A stretch of 23,177 nucleotides of DNA from a virus: IMG/VR virus record IMGVR_UViG_3300035224_000325, positions 1 to 23,177 of that record. One strand, given 5' to 3'. Below are positions 11,252 to 20,826 of this stretch, piece after piece (the stretch's first letter is position 1; the number at the start of each line of letters is the position of its first letter). The position numbers were made by a program, and so were the translations under genes. The notes under the pieces were generated by a model. That model saw nothing but the letters and a program-made list of their open reading frames with translations, searched no databases and was not told the DNA's origin.

Positions 11252-11683
11252 TTAGACTCCTAAGTGATCTTCGGTTAGTATTAAGAAGTTCATCTGCCTG
11301 TCTTCACAATACTCTCTCGCAGCGGACCATTTAGTTTGGTTCTTTACATAAGTCAGTGCGGCATTACGATAGGCAGCAGTTTTTTTGTTTTTCTCATTCG
11401 GTGGTTGAGTTTGCTTTTTGGGTTTGATCTCAATAATATACTTAGTAAGTTTGCCACTCTTTTCTTTTACTTTAATGTAAAAGTCAGGGAAATATCGTCT
11501 TACCTTACCATCGGGTGCGCGATAGGGAATAATTATCTCTTCGCTACCCCATTCAATTATTGAGGGATTACTATCACAGAACACCATGAACTTACGTTCC
11601 CAAAGTGATCTATAAACTATGTTTGTCGGATTGCCACGATACTTAGTAGGATTTTTAGGTTTGTAAAATCCAGAGTATGCCAT
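11252..11683 (-). CDS. 4: gp4 head completion protein
   Basis: 143 residues (T4 gp4 is 150). It finishes the filled head before tail joining. Motifs: FYKPKNPTKYRGNPTNIVYRSLWER at the N-terminus (read in parts), then a nuclease-like core with E48/E49 in WGSEE, D67 in YFPDFYIKV and E85-I-K87 in YIIEIKPK. This is the TnsA-like PD-(D/E)XK pattern seen in gp4 homologues, and all acidic/Lys positions are kept, so a metal-dependent nuclease activity on packaged DNA ends is plausible. ATG 11683 is chosen; a longer frame to 11806 crosses the divergent gene and its promoters. The minus-strand late-type motif at 11707-11714 is 23 nt upstream. Confidence 0.88.
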   Translation of the reverse strand: MAYSGFYKPKNPTKYRGNPTNIVYRSLWERKFMVFCDSNPSIIEWGSEEIIIPYRAPDGKVRRYFPDFYIKVKEKSGKLTKYIIEIKPKKQTQPPNEKNKKTAAYRNAALTYVKNQTKWSAAREYCEDRQMNFLILTEDHLGV

Positions 11684-11688
11684 AAATA
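11681..11688 (+). promoter_or_regulatory. Late promoter motif (CATAAATA), plus strand
   Basis: Perfect motif 53 nt before ATG 11742. Its first three bases are the complement of the gp4 start codon. It faces the minus-strand motif at 11707-11714. Confidence 0.6.
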
Positions 11689-11706
11689 TAGAGAGACCAA
11701 CATAGG

Positions 11707-11714
11707 TATTTAGT
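11707..11714 (-). promoter_or_regulatory. Variant late promoter (ACTAAATA), minus strand
   Basis: On the minus strand reads CACTAAATA; it ends 23 nt before the gp4 ATG at 11683. It would drive gp4, the 229-aa gene, gp48 and gp53. The same variant precedes three plus-strand genes at similar spacing. Confidence 0.5.
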
Positions 11715-11741
11715 GTGTCGATAAATCGTCTATTAACGACA

Positions 11742-12350
11742 ATGGCAGCAAACGGCGGAATGTCGTTCAGTAATAACTTTGTTGTGAAATTTATCAACCC
11801 ACCCATTACTCCTCCGGGTGGACAATCATCTGACTACTTTGAAATGTTTTGCACTGAAGCACAATTGCCGAACACTAATACGGCACAAGGTCAAATGAAT
11901 GGCACATATGTTGGTAGTGGATCTGTAAACTACCCTCACACAAGAGTATTTACTGAAATTCAATTGGGATTTATGTGTGATGCTAATATGACATCACTTA
12001 AATTTCTACAAGATTGGACTGATTCTATTTTTAATGAAGGGGGTGACGATGTTGTTGGTAAATCAAAATCAGCAATGGAATCTTCTGCCTTCGATGCTGG
12101 CAGACCAGAGGGAAGAAATATCAGATTAAAATATAGGGATGAATATGCATGTAAAATTGCTATTACCAAGACTGAAATTGGACCAAATTCTCCTATAGAA
12201 AGAGCACCTATTACATATATTTTAGAGCAAGCATATCCCTATGCTATTGATGCAATACCTTTACAGTTTGGTAGTAGTCAGTTGACGCAAGTAACAGCAC
12301 AGTTCTCTTACATGAGACACTATGTGATCAAAAATGATATTAGACCGTGA
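11742..12350 (+). CDS. 54: gp19-fold tail-tube protein, probably gp54 initiator
   Basis: 202 residues from ATG 11742; a GTG at 11715 would extend it but lies in the promoter region. The tube-protein fold (T4 gp19 family) is indicated by SFSNNFVVKFINPP, EMFCTEAQLPNTNT, a central HTRVFTEIQLGFMCD and the C-terminal ILEQAYPYAIDAIPL plus LTQVTAQFSYMRHYV. Tail tube (gp19) and tube initiator (gp54) share this fold. Position beside gp48 and the hub genes, away from a sheath gene, favours gp54, although T4 gp54 is longer (320). Late-type promoter at 11681. The gene is followed by repeat copy B. Confidence 0.75.
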   Translation: MAANGGMSFSNNFVVKFINPPITPPGGQSSDYFEMFCTEAQLPNTNTAQGQMNGTYVGSGSVNYPHTRVFTEIQLGFMCDANMTSLKFLQDWTDSIFNEGGDDVVGKSKSAMESSAFDAGRPEGRNIRLKYRDEYACKIAITKTEIGPNSPIERAPITYILEQAYPYAIDAIPLQFGSSQLTQVTAQFSYMRHYVIKNDIRP

Positions 12351-12371
12351 AAACCAACTTTTCAATTCCAT

Positions 12372-12415
12372 GAAAGTGGGAAAATTTTTCCTGCTCATTT
12401 TTGGTTAAAAAAGTC
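12372..12415 (+). repeat. 44-nt repeated element, copy B, before gp26
   Basis: Aligns without gaps to 8781-8824 (32/44 identical), sharing TGGGAAAA, TTTTG and AAAAGTC blocks. It holds a near-palindrome GGGAAAATTTTTCC (12378-12391) and an enclosing AACCAA (12352-12357)/TTGGTT (12401-12406). The variant late motif follows at once, so the unit resembles a stem-loop plus promoter cassette. Confidence 0.5.
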
Positions 12416-12417
12416 GC

Positions 12418-12425
12418 ACTAAATA
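12418..12425 (+). promoter_or_regulatory. Variant late promoter (ACTAAATA)
   Basis: Ends 24 nt before the gp26 ATG at 12450. Preceded by GC, as is the copy at 17643 (GCACTAAATA in both). Confidence 0.5.
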
Positions 12426-12449
12426 TTAATATGATATGATCTAAGTATA

Positions 12450-13160
12450 ATGGCATTACCAAAAGTTGCATTACCAACTTATGAATTGGAAATTCCTTCA
12501 AATGGCAAAAAAATCAAATATCGCCCATTTGTTGTAAAAGAAGAAAAACTACTTTTATTAGCACTTGAATCTCAAGATGATAAGCAGATTGAAGAATCTA
12601 CAAGGACATTACTAAAAAATTGTATTCAATCTCGCGTAAAATTAGAAGATTTAGCAATTTTTGATCTGGAGTACATTTTTCTTCAGATTCGCGCTGTATC
12701 AGTTGGCGAAGTTGTTGAAATGTTGCTGACATGCGAAGATGATGGTGAAACGCAAGTTAAGTACAATCTTAATTTGACAGATGTCCAAGTTATCAAATCA
12801 GAAGATCATAGTAGTAAAATTATGCTATCTGACGAAATGGGACTCATTATGAAGTATCCTTCATTTGAAGAATTTGTAAAAGTATCGATTATCGCAAAAG
12901 ATACTAGCGAACAAGTTATTGAGATTATGGGGAAATGTATCGATCAAATTTTTGATGGTGAAGAAGTTTATGACAGTTCGACCACATCAAAAAAAGAATT
13001 TGTTGAATTTATTGAAGGATTGACAAATAAGCAATTTGAAAAAGTTCAGGAGTTTTTCTCTGAAATGCCAGTTCTTAAACATGAGATTAAGTTAAAAAAC
13101 CCAAATACTGGTGTTGAAAATAGTTTTGTAATTCAAGGATTATCTAATTTTTTCGGATAA
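12450..13160 (+). CDS. 26: gp26-like hub/tail assembly chaperone
   Basis: 236 residues (T4 gp26 is 208; T4_baseplate family). In T4, gp26 is needed for hub assembly; its place just before the tape measure matches the tail assembly chaperones of other long-tailed phages. Recognisable parts are LPTYELEIPSNGKKIKYRPFVVKEEKLLL, the long helix block to LLKNCIQSR, then LEYIFLQIRAVSVGEVVEM and the acidic C-terminal domain (FVEFIEGLTNKQFEKVQEFF). It ends LSNFFG at TAA 13158. The FF codons form a slippery heptamer, T TTT TTC (13148-13154), and a -1 shift would enter a long open downstream frame. Promoted by the variant late site at 12418. Confidence 0.9.
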   Translation: MALPKVALPTYELEIPSNGKKIKYRPFVVKEEKLLLLALESQDDKQIEESTRTLLKNCIQSRVKLEDLAIFDLEYIFLQIRAVSVGEVVEMLLTCEDDGETQVKYNLNLTDVQVIKSEDHSSKIMLSDEMGLIMKYPSFEEFVKVSIIAKDTSEQVIEIMGKCIDQIFDGEEVYDSSTTSKKEFVEFIEGLTNKQFEKVQEFFSEMPVLKHEIKLKNPNTGVENSFVIQGLSNFFG

Positions 13161-13184
13161 GCCTCTTTCACAATACGTTAGAGG
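13148..13184 (+). other. Probable -1 programmed frameshift site
   Basis: T TTT TTC at 13148-13154 fits the X XXY YYZ slippery pattern in the gp26 frame. Seven nt later is a stem CCTCT (13162-13166)/AGAGG (13180-13184), a usual spacing for a stimulator, though it is only five pairs with a 13-nt loop. The zero-frame stop is two codons past the site. Confidence 0.75.
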
Positions 13185-13339
13185 GGTATTACAAGACTAA
13201 TTTTGCCTTGATGCAACACCATAAATATAGTTTGAGTGAAATAGAAGATATGATGCCTTGGGAGAGACAAGTTTACACTAGTCTCCTCATGCAATACCTA
13301 GAACAAGTCAAACAAGAACAAGAAAAAGCAGCAAGGTAA
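13154..13339 (+). CDS. Frameshift extension of gp26 (chaperone T-part), 61 codons
   Basis: After a -1 slip at 13154 the frame is open from CGG 13154 to TAA 13337-13339. It adds 61 residues: RISLFHNTLEGYYKTNFALM, then HHKYSLSEIEDMMPWERQVY and an amphipathic Glu/Gln/Lys helix. Product would be about 296 residues (join 12450..13154 and 13154..13339). The part with HHxYSLSEIEDMxPWER looks like the short second part of frameshifted tail assembly chaperones (lambda G-GT type), which recruit tail tube subunits to the tape measure. An ATG at 13211 could alternatively give a free 42-aa protein. No Shine-Dalgarno precedes 13211, which favours the frameshift. The gene ends 2 nt before the tape measure ATG. 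Confidence 0.75.
   Translation, partial: RISLFHNTLEGYYKTNFALMQHHKYSLSEIEDMMPWERQVYTSLLMQYLEQVKQEQEKAAR
13220..13227 (+). promoter_or_regulatory. Late promoter motif (CATAAATA) inside the chaperone extension
   Basis: Perfect motif that also encodes part of His-His-Lys-Tyr in the frameshift extension. A start near 13233 would give a separate late transcript for the tape measure gene at 13342. Confidence 0.5.
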
Positions 13340-13341
13340 TA

Positions 13342-16239
13342 ATGGCACACGGTTATCTTACACCACAAGCAGTATCAGGAGAAGGACTTGGAATCCCATA
13401 TAAGAAATTATATGATGCATTCAAGAAACTTTTTCGTAAAGATCTCCGTGTCGTTAATGCCAACGTAAAAGAAGTAAGGGACTTGTTACCTGGGGGGAAG
13501 GATAGAGCACAACTTCCACCATCAAGGCAGAAAATGCTTGGTGGTGCTGCAACAAAACTACTAACAGGTGCTGCCTCTAGTGATATTGTTCCTAAAAAAG
13601 CAGGTATTGTAAACACAGAGGCAAAAACTGCTATTGTTGGTAGAAATGCCACTGATATTAATAGAAAAGAACAAAAATACCTAGGAACTACTGATCCTGA
13701 TGTAGCAGGTGGTCCAAAGACCAGAAAAGGTGGAACATTTACTGATTTTGGTTCTACTTCTTCCGCACCAGAAGCAAAACCGCTAAATGCAGAAAATTTC
13801 TTTTCAAAAGCGCAAACTGGTGTTGGTGGTAGTGGGGAATATTTAACCAAATCGCAAAGAGTTGCAGATTTTAGAAAATCGCAGGAAATGCGAACTGCCT
13901 CGGCAAATACTCCTGCAATTTCGCCAGATAGTGGTATTGATATTGTCGCTGCTGTTAATAAGAATACCGCAGCAATTGTTGCTTTATCTAATCTAACAGA
14001 AGAGCAGACAAAATCACAACGCTCGATGCATAACGAGCAACAAGCTCAATCAGATAAACTTGCTTCTAGAGCACTTGCTAGAGGCGAAGAAAAATCATTA
14101 GAAAAAGGTTCTGATCTTTCTGGGTTTACTACACCAGAAAAATTCCAAAAGTTACTACCTGGTGGCGGTGGATCTGGTGGAGGCGGTGGTGCTGGCGGTG
14201 GACCTGGACTTGGTATTGGTGGTAAAGTTGGTGCTAAAAAGGTAGTACAAGCAGTTGGTAAACGTGGTGCAGCACGAGTAGGAACACGATTAGCAGCAAA
14301 ATATGGTGGTAAGGCAGCAGCAAAAGCAGCAGGTAAATATGGCGGCAAAGCAGCTGCTAAACTTGGTGTTAAGGGTGCTGCGAAGATAGGAGCGGGTGCT
14401 GTTGCTAAATCAGTTGGCAAAAAGATACCTTTAGTTGGTTTGGGTCTTGGTGCTGTCTTTGCAGCACAGAGAGCATTACAGGGTGATTTTGTAGGTGCTG
14501 GTCTTGAGTTAGCATCTGGTGCAGCATCAACAGTTCCTGGTATTGGCACAGTTGGATCAGTTGGTATTGACGCTGCTCTTGCTGCCAGAGATATGGGAAT
14601 GACGCCATTCGCTAAGGGTGGTATCATTACACAACCGACTAATGCCCTTATGGGTGAATCTGGAGCAGAAGGTGTTTTTCCACTAGAAGGTAGAAGGGGC
14701 AAAAATACTTTCGAGGCAATGGGAGAAGGTATTCTTGAGGCACAGAAAAAAGGTAAGAAAGAATATGCTGATCTACAGTCAGCAGGTCTTAAATTATATT
14801 TTGAAAACAAGGGTGGATTTAAAGTCTTTGGCGATCTTTTTGGAAATATTATGTCTGGAATATTTGGTCCAATTATAGGCGGATTATCTAAAGGATTGGG
14901 TAATTTTCTGGGTGGTAGTTTAAATAAACTCCTTGGTCTTGGTGGAGATAAAAATTTATCTCCAGTTAATACTGGTGGACTTGCAGACTTTATTGGTGGT
15001 CTTGAGTCTGGAAATGATTACACTAAGATGGTTGGCGGAGCGAAAGATGAATCTGTACTTGGCAAAACTATAGATCAATTAAATACGGAAAAAGGTGGTC
15101 AGTTTGCTATGGGTCGTTATCAAATTCAAATGAGAACTGCCAGTGAAGTCCTTAAAAATGCTGGTATTGATACTTCATCATTTAAATTTGATAAAGCAGG
15201 TCAAGACAAAATCTTTGAATTGCTTTTAAAGAGAAGAGGTGTTGATGACTTTATGTCTGGCGAAATTGACGAAAATCAATTTGCTAAAAATCTTTCTATG
15301 GAATGGGCAGCACTACCTAAAGATGCATCTGGAAAAGGATTTTATGATGGAGTTGGGAGTAATAAGTCTCTAACTAGTTTCTCTTCCGTTAAGGGTCAGT
15401 TATCTGCACTCAAGGCATCCGGATCGCCATTCCAAGCATCTGCTCAAACTGGATCTGGAGGATCTCAAAATCTTGCATCTGCAGCACAGAGTTTGAAAGG
15501 AATGAGCACAGCAGACGGTCCTGATGGTGGTCAGAATGGTTGTGTATATGCTGTGAACAAAGTATTCAGCAAAGCGGGTATCACTCCACCATGGGGATCA
15601 TCACTATATGTTCCTGATGCTGAGAAATCTATGATTGATGCTGGTTGGCAGCAGGTCCCATATGGTCAACAACAACCAGGCGATGTATTTGTTATGAAGG
15701 ATCAGAAGTCTCCACCACAGGCACATATTGGTGTTGCAACCGATAATAAATTTATTTTATCCAATTCATCAGGTAAAGCAGCGATGAGTTGGTCTTCTAC
15801 AGCACAAGGATATAATTCATATTATGGTGGACAGGGAGCATTATACAGAATGCCTGGTCAACAGGCAGTATCCACTGCACAAGCAGGGTCTCCTGGAGCT
15901 CCACCTTCGGGTGCTCCTTTAACAGCAGAACAGAAAGCAAAAATGTTCAAAAAGGTTGGGATGCCTGCATTCGCAGCGTCCGCTTTATCTTCTCCTCCTG
16001 GTCCTGTTGCAGCTTCACCAGCATCACCACAAACTGGAACATCTATCATGGCGACTTCAGCACAGGTAGCATCTGCTTCTAATGTTGGTGCAGCACCTAG
16101 TATTGTTAATAATTACTATGGTTCTGGTGGTGGTAAGCAAAGTAGTGGAGTTAATCCAAATGGAGTATCTGCTGGTATTGATATGAATGCTGCAGGTCTT
16201 GGTGCGTTCCAAGAATTAAAACTTAGATCATTAGCATAA
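13342..16239 (+). CDS. 29: Tape measure/hub protein with two wall-hydrolase domains (gp29-like)
   Basis: 965 residues (T4 gp29 is 590). Order: N-terminal helical region; coiled segment ~205-265; Gly-rich linker ~271-293; Ala/Gly/Lys-rich then hydrophobic segment ~310-420, likely membrane-active; tape-measure motif FAKGGIITQPTNALMGESGAEGVFPL ~422-448; a muramidase-like domain from ~546 with GGLESGNDY (E555 probable acid) and FAMGRYQIQ (588-596); an NlpC/P60- or CHAP-like Cys-His domain with C734 (NGCVYAVNKVF) and H795 (QAHIGVATD); a Pro/Ala/Ser-rich tail. It would set tail length and be released with DNA to open peptidoglycan. It follows the chaperone pair, as tape measures do, and its stop overlaps the next start (TAATG). 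Confidence 0.85.
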   Translation: MAHGYLTPQAVSGEGLGIPYKKLYDAFKKLFRKDLRVVNANVKEVRDLLPGGKDRAQLPPSRQKMLGGAATKLLTGAASSDIVPKKAGIVNTEAKTAIVGRNATDINRKEQKYLGTTDPDVAGGPKTRKGGTFTDFGSTSSAPEAKPLNAENFFSKAQTGVGGSGEYLTKSQRVADFRKSQEMRTASANTPAISPDSGIDIVAAVNKNTAAIVALSNLTEEQTKSQRSMHNEQQAQSDKLASRALARGEEKSLEKGSDLSGFTTPEKFQKLLPGGGGSGGGGGAGGGPGLGIGGKVGAKKVVQAVGKRGAARVGTRLAAKYGGKAAAKAAGKYGGKAAAKLGVKGAAKIGAGAVAKSVGKKIPLVGLGLGAVFAAQRALQGDFVGAGLELASGAASTVPGIGTVGSVGIDAALAARDMGMTPFAKGGIITQPTNALMGESGAEGVFPLEGRRGKNTFEAMGEGILEAQKKGKKEYADLQSAGLKLYFENKGGFKVFGDLFGNIMSGIFGPIIGGLSKGLGNFLGGSLNKLLGLGGDKNLSPVNTGGLADFIGGLESGNDYTKMVGGAKDESVLGKTIDQLNTEKGGQFAMGRYQIQMRTASEVLKNAGIDTSSFKFDKAGQDKIFELLLKRRGVDDFMSGEIDENQFAKNLSMEWAALPKDASGKGFYDGVGSNKSLTSFSSVKGQLSALKASGSPFQASAQTGSGGSQNLASAAQSLKGMSTADGPDGGQNGCVYAVNKVFSKAGITPPWGSSLYVPDAEKSMIDAGWQQVPYGQQQPGDVFVMKDQKSPPQAHIGVATDNKFILSNSSGKAAMSWSSTAQGYNSYYGGQGALYRMPGQQAVSTAQAGSPGAPPSGAPLTAEQKAKMFKKVGMPAFAASALSSPPGPVAASPASPQTGTSIMATSAQVASASNVGAAPSIVNNYYGSGGGKQSSGVNPNGVSAGIDMNAAGLGAFQELKLRSLA

Positions 16240-17904: not shown

Positions 17905-20826
17905 ATGGATCAATTAGTATCACAGTTGATTCCTACTCAGCGCATCGGAAACGATGGGTTTAATTGGTGGGTGGGTCAAATTGAAGGAACTGCTACTGAT
18001 GAAACAAATAACAAAGGTGGTTATCGTTTCAAAGTTCGTATTGTAGGAGATCATCCTGGTAAAAAGGAACTCCTTGATACAGCAGATTTGCCATGGGCAA
18101 CTGTGATGATGCCTGTTACAGTTCCATTCATTCCTGGTAATAGTGGTGGAGCACACCCACAATTAGAGATTGGTTGTTGGGTTATCGGTTTCTATATGGA
18201 TACCGAGAAACAAAAACCTATTATCATGGGGTCTATTGGACAAACTCCTGGTGCCACTAAGGTATTTGCTGAAAGAACACCAGATACTGCACCATTTACC
18301 ACTGCGATTGGACAAATTAATGAAAAAGCAGATGGTCCACCAAAACAAAAAGGTACAGAAAAAAATACTGCTACTGGTGGACTGTCTGATGGTACAAAAG
18401 ACGGAGAAGGAAATCAAAGAGTCACTACTCCACAAAAGAAAATAGATCCATTAAAAAATAAGAGTGCTGCATCAGAAGACTGGTGTCAATCTAAAGCAGA
18501 AAAATGTGATGAAGATGACATGACATCACAATTGACTGGTATCATGGGAGAATTTCTTGCTGCAGTTCAAAATAGTGGTGGTAATATTGGTACATATGTT
18601 GTCAATCAAGCTAGTGGTGTAATCCAGGATGGTGTTGGCATAGCAAGAGGATACATTAACAAAGCAATGCTGGTTGTTAGTGAGTTTGTTGCTAAAGTAA
18701 AAGGATTTATTATTGAGAAACTTAAGGCTGCTGTTAATGATTTAATCAAAGCATTACTTGTTCCAACAGAAACTGGCAATTCATTGACACCGGTTACAGA
18801 ATTTTTCAATAATTTATTAGCAAACTTAGGATGCTCGATGGCGGATCTTGGAGATCGCTTAGGAAAATTTCTCACAGATTTGTTAATGAGTTATGTTGAA
18901 CAGATTTATAAGTCTGTAGCTTGTCAAATTGATGCTCTAGTTGGTGGTATCATGTCGAAGATTAATTCATTAATGAATGATCTTCTTGGTCAAATTCTTG
19001 GTCCAATTAGTGATATCTTAGGAGCAATTGCGGGACCATTAAACATTCTTGGTGGAGCAATTAATTTTGTATTAAACTTACTCGGAATTTCATGCTCTGG
19101 TCCAGATAGATCATGTAGTAAGAAAAAAGCAGTTTGCACAAATGGTGGAGAAGAAGAGAAAAAAGAAGGAGACTTCTTAGATGATCTACTATCGGACATC
19201 GATAATTTATTTCCAGCAACAGGTGCTGATTACACTCAGTATGTTTGTGATGATGCTTACAAAGGCAATACTTTAGAGTTTACGACTATTGGATTCACTG
19301 GCGGAGTTCCTAGGGGTGGTAGTGGTAGCGGAAATGATGGGGATATTCTCCCTGGGGAAGAACAAGATTCCGATAACAATGGCGTAAAACAAACTAAAAA
19401 GATTACATATACGATTAATGACGTTACTGTAGAAGAAGGAGAGGTTGCTAACTTTGTTGTCAAGAGAAAAGGAAATACATCTATTTCATCTTCTGTTAAA
19501 TATAGAACTCTAAAATATAATGGTAGCGCCACTGAAGGACAAGATTATATTCCAGAAAAAGGAATTCTTGGATTTGCACCTGGGGAACTTGAAAAAGTTA
19601 TTCAAGTTAGAACATTAAATGATTCCATACGAGAAGAAGATGAAGATTTTAAACTTCTCATAAGAAAAAATACTCCTATGAAAGGTAGTGTTGTTCAAAC
19701 ACGATTTATTAAAACTATAGCTACAGGAACAATTACTGAAAAAAATCTAAAAGAACCATATAATCCATATCCAGGAATTGTAAAAGATCCTTCATACGAA
19801 ATTCCTGAATTGTTTCCACCAGAAATTACTAATCCAATTGATGATGGTGGTGGGGATGATGACACTTCAGATATTCCGTTCAGTGATAATGATGGAGATG
19901 GCAGAGATGATAATTCTGGATTTGAACTTTCTAAAACTGTAGTTGTAGAAGCAAATAGAGACTCTTGTCCTGAAGGTGAGTTTATTGTTTACACTGTTGA
20001 GACTACAAATTTTGAGAATGGTGAAATTTTGTACTATACTCTTTCTGGTGATGGAATTACATCAGAAGATATTATTGGTGGGGGTATGGTTGGCGATTTA
20101 ATTATTAATGACAATAAATCTAAAATTACTATTGGTATTGAAGAAGATGGTGTGGTTGAAGACGCAGAGATTCTTAGACTAACAATCAATGGAACTGGTG
20201 CATATGCTGATGTTATAATTCTAACAGAAGACGATCTCTTTGATGAGGGCGAAGGTGAAGGACCAGCAACTGATACTAGAATATTTGTTCCACCTACTAT
20301 TAATACTGGTGATGTTATCACTGATGATAATGGTGGAATTATTGATATTCCGGTGTCTAATCCTGGTTCTCCGTGGGCGGAAGCACCATATGTGTTTGTT
20401 ATTGGCGAAGGCATTGGTGCCACTGCAACTGCTTTATTAGATCGAGATGGTTTTCTTACTGAAATTCGTGTTAAGTCAAATGGATTTGGATATAAGAAAA
20501 ATCTTGCAGATAACAACAATAAGCGATGTATTATTGACTCTTTTACTCTCGTCAGACCAGGTAGTAATTATACAGAAGTACCAACAATTTATGTTGATGG
20601 GAGAACTGATGTAGCAGAAGCAATCATCGATGATCAAGGATTTGTTATTGGTGCTAGAATTCTTGACAGGATAACTACATATAAAAAGTATCCGGAGATT
20701 CTAGTTATTGGTGGTAATGGATATGGTGCTAAATTATTGCCATCTCTAGCATGTCTAGATACAGATGCACTTACCAAAATTGGTTCTACTAAAATTGGAA
20801 CTGGTCGTTACGTTGATTGTCCATAA
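17905..20826 (+). CDS. 5: gp5-like hub spike protein, no lysozyme, Calx-beta domains
   Basis: 973 residues (T4 gp5 is 575). The N-terminal OB-fold (1-~115) follows gp5: NWWVGQIEGTATDE, YRFKVRIVGDHPG, DLPWATVMMPVT, IGCWVIGFYMDTEKQKPIIMGSIGQ. No lysozyme domain follows. Instead there is a linker, then a long hydrophobic helical region (~205-405) with scattered Cys, then two Calx-beta-like domains (~503-600, VEEGEVANFVVKRKG; and ~673-780, EGEFIVYTVETTN), and at the C-terminus two or three copies of a beta repeat (GxGATATALLDRDGFLTEI, GRTDVAEAIIDDQGFVIGA). Starts 5 nt after the CP12 stop with no clear Shine-Dalgarno. The needle beta-helix appears to be supplied by the next gene. Confidence 0.85.
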   Translation: MDQLVSQLIPTQRIGNDGFNWWVGQIEGTATDETNNKGGYRFKVRIVGDHPGKKELLDTADLPWATVMMPVTVPFIPGNSGGAHPQLEIGCWVIGFYMDTEKQKPIIMGSIGQTPGATKVFAERTPDTAPFTTAIGQINEKADGPPKQKGTEKNTATGGLSDGTKDGEGNQRVTTPQKKIDPLKNKSAASEDWCQSKAEKCDEDDMTSQLTGIMGEFLAAVQNSGGNIGTYVVNQASGVIQDGVGIARGYINKAMLVVSEFVAKVKGFIIEKLKAAVNDLIKALLVPTETGNSLTPVTEFFNNLLANLGCSMADLGDRLGKFLTDLLMSYVEQIYKSVACQIDALVGGIMSKINSLMNDLLGQILGPISDILGAIAGPLNILGGAINFVLNLLGISCSGPDRSCSKKKAVCTNGGEEEKKEGDFLDDLLSDIDNLFPATGADYTQYVCDDAYKGNTLEFTTIGFTGGVPRGGSGSGNDGDILPGEEQDSDNNGVKQTKKITYTINDVTVEEGEVANFVVKRKGNTSISSSVKYRTLKYNGSATEGQDYIPEKGILGFAPGELEKVIQVRTLNDSIREEDEDFKLLIRKNTPMKGSVVQTRFIKTIATGTITEKNLKEPYNPYPGIVKDPSYEIPELFPPEITNPIDDGGGDDDTSDIPFSDNDGDGRDDNSGFELSKTVVVEANRDSCPEGEFIVYTVETTNFENGEILYYTLSGDGITSEDIIGGGMVGDLIINDNKSKITIGIEEDGVVEDAEILRLTINGTGAYADVIILTEDDLFDEGEGEGPATDTRIFVPPTINTGDVITDDNGGIIDIPVSNPGSPWAEAPYVFVIGEGIGATATALLDRDGFLTEIRVKSNGFGYKKNLADNNNKRCIIDSFTLVRPGSNYTEVPTIYVDGRTDVAEAIIDDQGFVIGARILDRITTYKKYPEILVIGGNGYGAKLLPSLACLDTDALTKIGSTKIGTGRYVDCP

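Follow-up and report, generated by a model that had tools for sequence, protein, structure and literature searches.

In bacteriophage lambda, gpG and gpGT are a short protein and a -1 frameshifted long form, both encoded by a single locus that immediately precedes a large tail gene. In E. coli dnaX, an SD-like stimulator, the heptamer A AAA AAG and a downstream hairpin follow one another, and the shift generates the shorter product. Tail assembly chaperone genes were reportedly identified in T4-like phages by Vladimirov, Gautam and Davidson in 2022 (Virology 566:9-15), whose abstract is said to describe frameshifting as conserved in several T4-like groups. As quoted in papers citing that study, poly-T -1 signals occur in the TAC-N genes of T4-like phages (PMC12846349), and other T4-like phages carry separate short and long genes instead (PMC10885494). 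According to the first of these papers, the tail chaperone locus of the Vandenendeviridae phage Adele contains a poly-T -1 signal, GTTTTT, near the end of TAC-N, and its downstream ORF is routinely misannotated as a separate gene (PMC12846349). PMC3004832 counts T4 gp26 and gp51 as hub assembly chaperones and reports gp51 to be required for assembly and absent from the particle. Our literature search, in which the 2022 study was represented by its title and the papers citing it, found no paper on gp26/gp51 frameshifting in cyanophages.

The window analyzed here is a viral DNA stretch of 23,177 nucleotides (IMG/VR record IMGVR_UViG_3300035224_000325). It is 95-96% identical to Synechococcus phages ACG-2014e and ACG-2014i over positions 11715-13900 and represents a T4-like cyanophage near these two. 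The features of the locus are summarized in Table 1. The gp26 protein matches PF12322 (T4_baseplate; E 3e-70, 236.7 bits against a curated cutoff of 24.5 in a profile search) and phrog_150 (baseplate hub; E 1.6e-76 in the PHROG profile search). Its zero frame ends in ...TCT AAT TTT TTC GGA TAA, so that T TTT TTC is in the phase required for simultaneous -1 slippage. A preliminary description of the window had stated that gp26 ends two codons past this heptamer and that a 61-codon open -1 frame stops 2 nt before the next gene; the heptamer is indeed in phase, with one sense codon before the stop, and both figures for the extension hold, its TAA lying 61 codons past the heptamer and 2 nt from the next ATG. 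The 63-residue peptide of the -1 frame matches phrog_634 ("baseplate hub assembly catalyst"; E 3.2e-27) as well as the C-terminal end of phrog_150 in the PHROG search. By tblastn the extension was found in 572 phage records, at least 80% of it being covered in 561, and in annotated cyanophages it goes by the name "gp51". Programmed -1 frameshifting at gp26 has strong comparative support, and the gene very probably yields a short gp26 and, by slippage on T TTT TTC, a minor gp26-gp51 fusion, both of them putative chaperones. The locus resembles that of lambda in its arrangement. With dnaX it shares the order of SD-like element, heptamer and hairpin, whereas the slippery word and the longer shift product differ; the Adele locus is similar in its poly-T signal near the end of TAC-N and in its misannotated downstream ORF, although it belongs to a different phage family and uses another motif.

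Table 1. Features of the gp26/gp51 locus and the following ORF in the window.
Feature	Position	Strand	Remarks
gp26 short form (TAC-N candidate)	12450..13160	+	zero frame; stop TAA 13158-13160
SD-like stretch TCAAGGA	13133..13139	+	core AAGGA 13135-13139; 9-15 nt upstream of heptamer
Slippery heptamer T TTT TTC	13148..13154	+	sequence; in-frame T TTT TTN kept in relatives
-1 frame extension, gp51 (TAC-C candidate)	13148..13339	+	open from 13148; stop 13337-13339 included
Downstream hairpin	13161..13187	+	arms 13161-13168 / 13180-13187; starts 6 nt after heptamer
Downstream ORF, 965 aa, putative tape measure protein	13342..16239	+	ATG at 13342; marginal NlpC/P60 match

By itself the heptamer means little, since in-frame X XXY YYZ words (Y = A/T) occur 27 times in the 6780 codons of the window's main ORFs. 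Its conservation was counted at 352 loci with a confident gp26 match, as T TTT TTN in frame and at most 11 codons from the stop. It is present in 331 of these, which amounts to 331 of 331 outside the Ackermannviridae, Vibrio phage K444 and the T4 group; the 21 heptamer-less loci are those of the Ackermannviridae and K444, and the T4-group loci, fetched via gp51, have no confident gp26 match in that set. The last base of the heptamer is C in 306, T in 19, A in 6 and never G, and the heptamer extends beyond cyanophages to Aeromonas phage phiAS5, Vibrio phage nt-1 and Stenotrophomonas phage BUCT608. Among 135 representatives (gp26 loci below 80% protein identity), T TTT TTN is invariant with no exception seen: T is the last base of every codon ahead of the Phe pair (background 0.38-0.80, depending on the amino acid), and TTT is the first Phe codon throughout (background 0.73). 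The nominal log10 probabilities of -25 and -19, respectively, are overstated, because related sequences are treated as more independent than they are, a caveat that applies equally to the p-values given below. Behind the heptamer, the -1 frame continues for 53-69 codons in every one of the 322 loci that are not truncated at a contig end. Where the heptamer lies, its conservation in 331 of 331 relatives and the frame conserved behind it go far beyond what chance would give. Stop codons between 13154 and 13211 in relatives and loss of the slippery site, both named in the preliminary description as findings that would count against it, were looked for, and the frameshift reading was left standing. 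The heptamer is also kept in five loci (L292, L299, L301, L303, L326) despite a zero-frame stop 7 codons further downstream; there the short form gains a tail from the later stop. Separately, variants with T TTT TTA (L276, L309, L324, L335) have a strong hairpin, for example GGCTCTC/GAGAGCC, that directly follows the stop and may be suited to another slippery word.

Two flanking signals accompany the heptamer. Across the family, the 45 nt starting 5 nt past it form more stable folds than synonymous recodings do (mean z -1.73, p 1e-15), with a folding energy of -7.6 kcal/mol against -5.0 in upstream windows; a local energy minimum sits just past the heptamer at similar G+C. Long hairpins occur at this place in S-PM2 and P-SSM2, and the hairpin of the window itself has a minimum free energy of -10.0 kcal/mol (z -1.8). 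The preliminary description had placed a stem at 13162-13166/13180-13184; the hairpin is real, but this energy belongs to the longer register of Table 1, which is the better one and falls within the distance of about 5-9 nt expected between a -1 site and its stimulatory structure. Among 31 close relatives of the window, 92% of the hairpin cells are paired, against 41-54% once one arm is slid, and covariation beyond shuffling is weak and not convincing, so that the hairpin rests on its energy relative to synonymous recoding. Upstream, affinity for the anti-SD peaks family-wide at -15 to -9 from the heptamer (Wilcoxon p 1e-14 against synonymous recoding), the window's own copy being weak (-5.0 against an expected -4.2 kcal/mol).

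An in-frame counterpart of the long form is found in T4, whose genes 26 and 51 lie on opposite strands. Since plain BLASTP between T4 gp51 and gp26 was uninformative, the two were compared by profiles. Residues 1-201 of T4 gp51 match PF12322 (E 3.9e-52), and the protein matches phrog_150 over residues 3-248 and phrog_634 over 147-246; as judged from these matches, T4 gp51 is more than the extension, comprising a whole gp26 part plus the C-terminal extension. T4-group gp51 aligns with conceptual gp26-gp51 fusions at probability 99.3 (E 8e-21, 226 columns), colinearly and end to end through the junction, where T4 VFKLL stands opposite FFRIS of the window. The end of T4 gene 26, GAG TTC TTT GAG TTA CTA TAA, contains no heptamer and has a stop in the -1 frame. 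Given the colinearity across the junction, T4 has one gene for each form, 26 for the short and 51 for the long. T4 gp26 thus appears, by its sequence, as a PF12322 relative whose long counterpart is likewise short form plus extension, with two genes on opposite strands in T4 and one gene giving both forms by frameshift in the window. As with the heptamer, the conserved frames, the hairpin and the SD-like signal, this homology to T4 gp51 is read directly from the sequences.

Deposited annotations imply another origin for gp51, as a separate small protein made by termination-reinitiation just past the gp26 stop. S-PM2, P-SSM2, MC09, nt-1, BUCT608 and other records list it as its own CDS starting at the gp26 stop or a few nt from it, an ATG occurs within five codons past the heptamer in 39 of the 135 representatives, and a TAATG overlap takes the place of the heptamer in Limestonevirus and Vibrio K444. 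However, in 41 representatives, the window included, the first 18 codons of the -1 frame contain no ATG, GTG or TTG, and the peptide of this start-less stretch is recognisably the same throughout them (window RISLFHNTLEGYYKTNFALMQHHK). In 18 disjoint pairs, differences in the stretch fall 39/41/94 on positions 1/2/3 of the -1 codons (p 5e-8), and 117/102/278 with all representatives. Coding in the -1 frame begins at the shift site and needs no start codon, and a separate gp51 begun downstream would, given this constraint, leave the stretch untranslated. Reinitiation also leaves unexplained the invariant TTTTTT and the heptamer kept where the stop lies 7 codons further away, and we consider it very unlikely. 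In relatives with an ATG right behind the heptamer (e.g. S-PM2, P-SSM2, nt-1, BUCT608), a separate small gp51 product is possible on that account. The same constraint bears on a short independent ORF starting at a TTG or ATG at about 13208-13213, with the heptamer incidental; S-RSM4 and Sf-FP1 annotate gp51 from there and ALMQHHK is strongly conserved, yet with such a start the conserved RI[AS]LFHNTLEGYYKTNFA would go untranslated, and neither the heptamer and the hairpin nor the colinear T4 gp51 would be accounted for; hardly any probability attaches to this reading. An independent ORF from the internal ATG was rejected, as the substitution pattern upstream of that start speaks against it.

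A run of six T can provoke slippage of the polymerase too, and the fusion could arise in this way during transcription with a nearly identical protein outcome. Ribosomal slippage is the better fit to the phase-exact X XXY YYZ word, to a last base that is never G, and to a hairpin and SD-like element spaced as for ribosomes; transcriptional slippage as the source of the fusion is highly improbable. The -1 frameshift joining gp26 to gp51 explains the invariant heptamer, the start-less coding stretch, both flanking signals and the T4 gp51 counterpart together, and on these grounds the preliminary reading, that gp26 continues by -1 frameshift, is supported. In this mechanism, gp26 would be translated to its stop at 13160 to yield the abundant short form, while a fraction of the ribosomes would be paused by the upstream SD-like contact and the downstream hairpin, would slip from TTT-TTC to TTT-TTT on T TTT TTC and would read 61 more codons, yielding a minor gp26-gp51 fusion of about 296 residues. 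If lambda G/GT is taken as the model, both forms may then serve the tape measure protein jointly as tail assembly chaperones, the extension presumably providing the contact required for tube assembly. That slippage occurs, its rate and the chaperone action are what we infer from the locus.

Other lineages may express the homologous small ORF differently. In Limestonevirus (L094, L345-L347) and Vibrio K444, which have no heptamer, the ATG of the TAATG overlaps the gp26 stop and could start this ORF. Kuttervirus-type Ackermannviridae (L092, L348-L362) have a homologous -1 ORF with neither the heptamer nor an ATG just past the gp26 stop, and ATT (I) where Limestonevirus has ATG; a non-AUG start or another slip site are the options for its expression. 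It is conceivable, although we hold it only tentatively and rather doubt it, that the family keeps several routes to a short and a long chaperone, some lineages perhaps combining two: frameshift alone (the window, S-RSM4, phiAS5), frameshift with an ATG just past the heptamer that may add free gp51 (S-PM2, P-SSM2, nt-1), stop-start overlap without heptamer (Limestonevirus, Vibrio K444), and two genes (T4).

The recasting of gp26 as a tail assembly chaperone, already put forward in the preliminary description, agrees with published work on T4-like phages as cited in PMC12846349 and PMC10885494; for gp26/gp51 of the window, chaperone activity is suggested by analogy. Compared with predicted viral proteins, the AlphaFold2 model of gp26 (pLDDT 85) has strong matches, chiefly to gp26 relatives; one matched protein is named baseplate hub assembly chaperone. 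In the PDB, the HK97 tail chaperone 2ob9 ranks second for this model, a match that is not significant (Foldseek E 0.91, probability 0.57). A sequence search against solved structures found no relative, and the NCBIfam search gave no match. The 965-aa ORF behind the extension had been labelled a tape measure gene, which is plausible and not proven: phrog_10093 (tape measure) matches it weakly over residues 416-456 (E 4.6e-7), while its best PHROG match, over the full length, is phrog_34252, "endolysin". NlpC/P60 gave E 0.15, below the cutoff, and relatives' records deposit the ORF as endolysin or late control gene D protein. Its middle is glycine/alanine-rich and hydrophobic. From its sequence, it is probably a tape measure protein with a peptidoglycan-active domain. 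Elsewhere in the window, positions 17905-20826 encode a gp5-like hub protein (Gp5 OB domain) with a Calx-beta domain (PF03160, E 3.8e-15), and 11252-11806 on the minus strand a gp4-type head completion protein that matches the TnsA-like endonuclease N-terminal domain (PF08722, E 3.1e-24).

The preliminary description left in doubt whether frameshifting is described for gp26; since the recast agrees with the published work on T4-like phages, as reflected in its citing papers, the answer is yes for T4-like phages in general, and the gp26/gp51 finding counts as genuine and well supported, though of a kind already known. The probable frameshift is still missed in the database records examined, cyanophage gp51 being entered as a separate gene with differing starts (S-PM2, S-RSM4, P-SSM2, syn9 and others) or left unlisted, as in ACG-2014e; the recent record Sf-FP1 (PV340854) still splits gp26 and gp51. 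With correct annotation, gp26 and gp51 would be joined, and the name of gp26 would change from baseplate hub subunit to tail assembly chaperone. The gp26 loci would thereby supply naturally occurring frameshift signals, ready to use, across many phage lineages, and the family allows frameshift, stop-start overlap and gene duplication to be compared as means of setting protein ratios.
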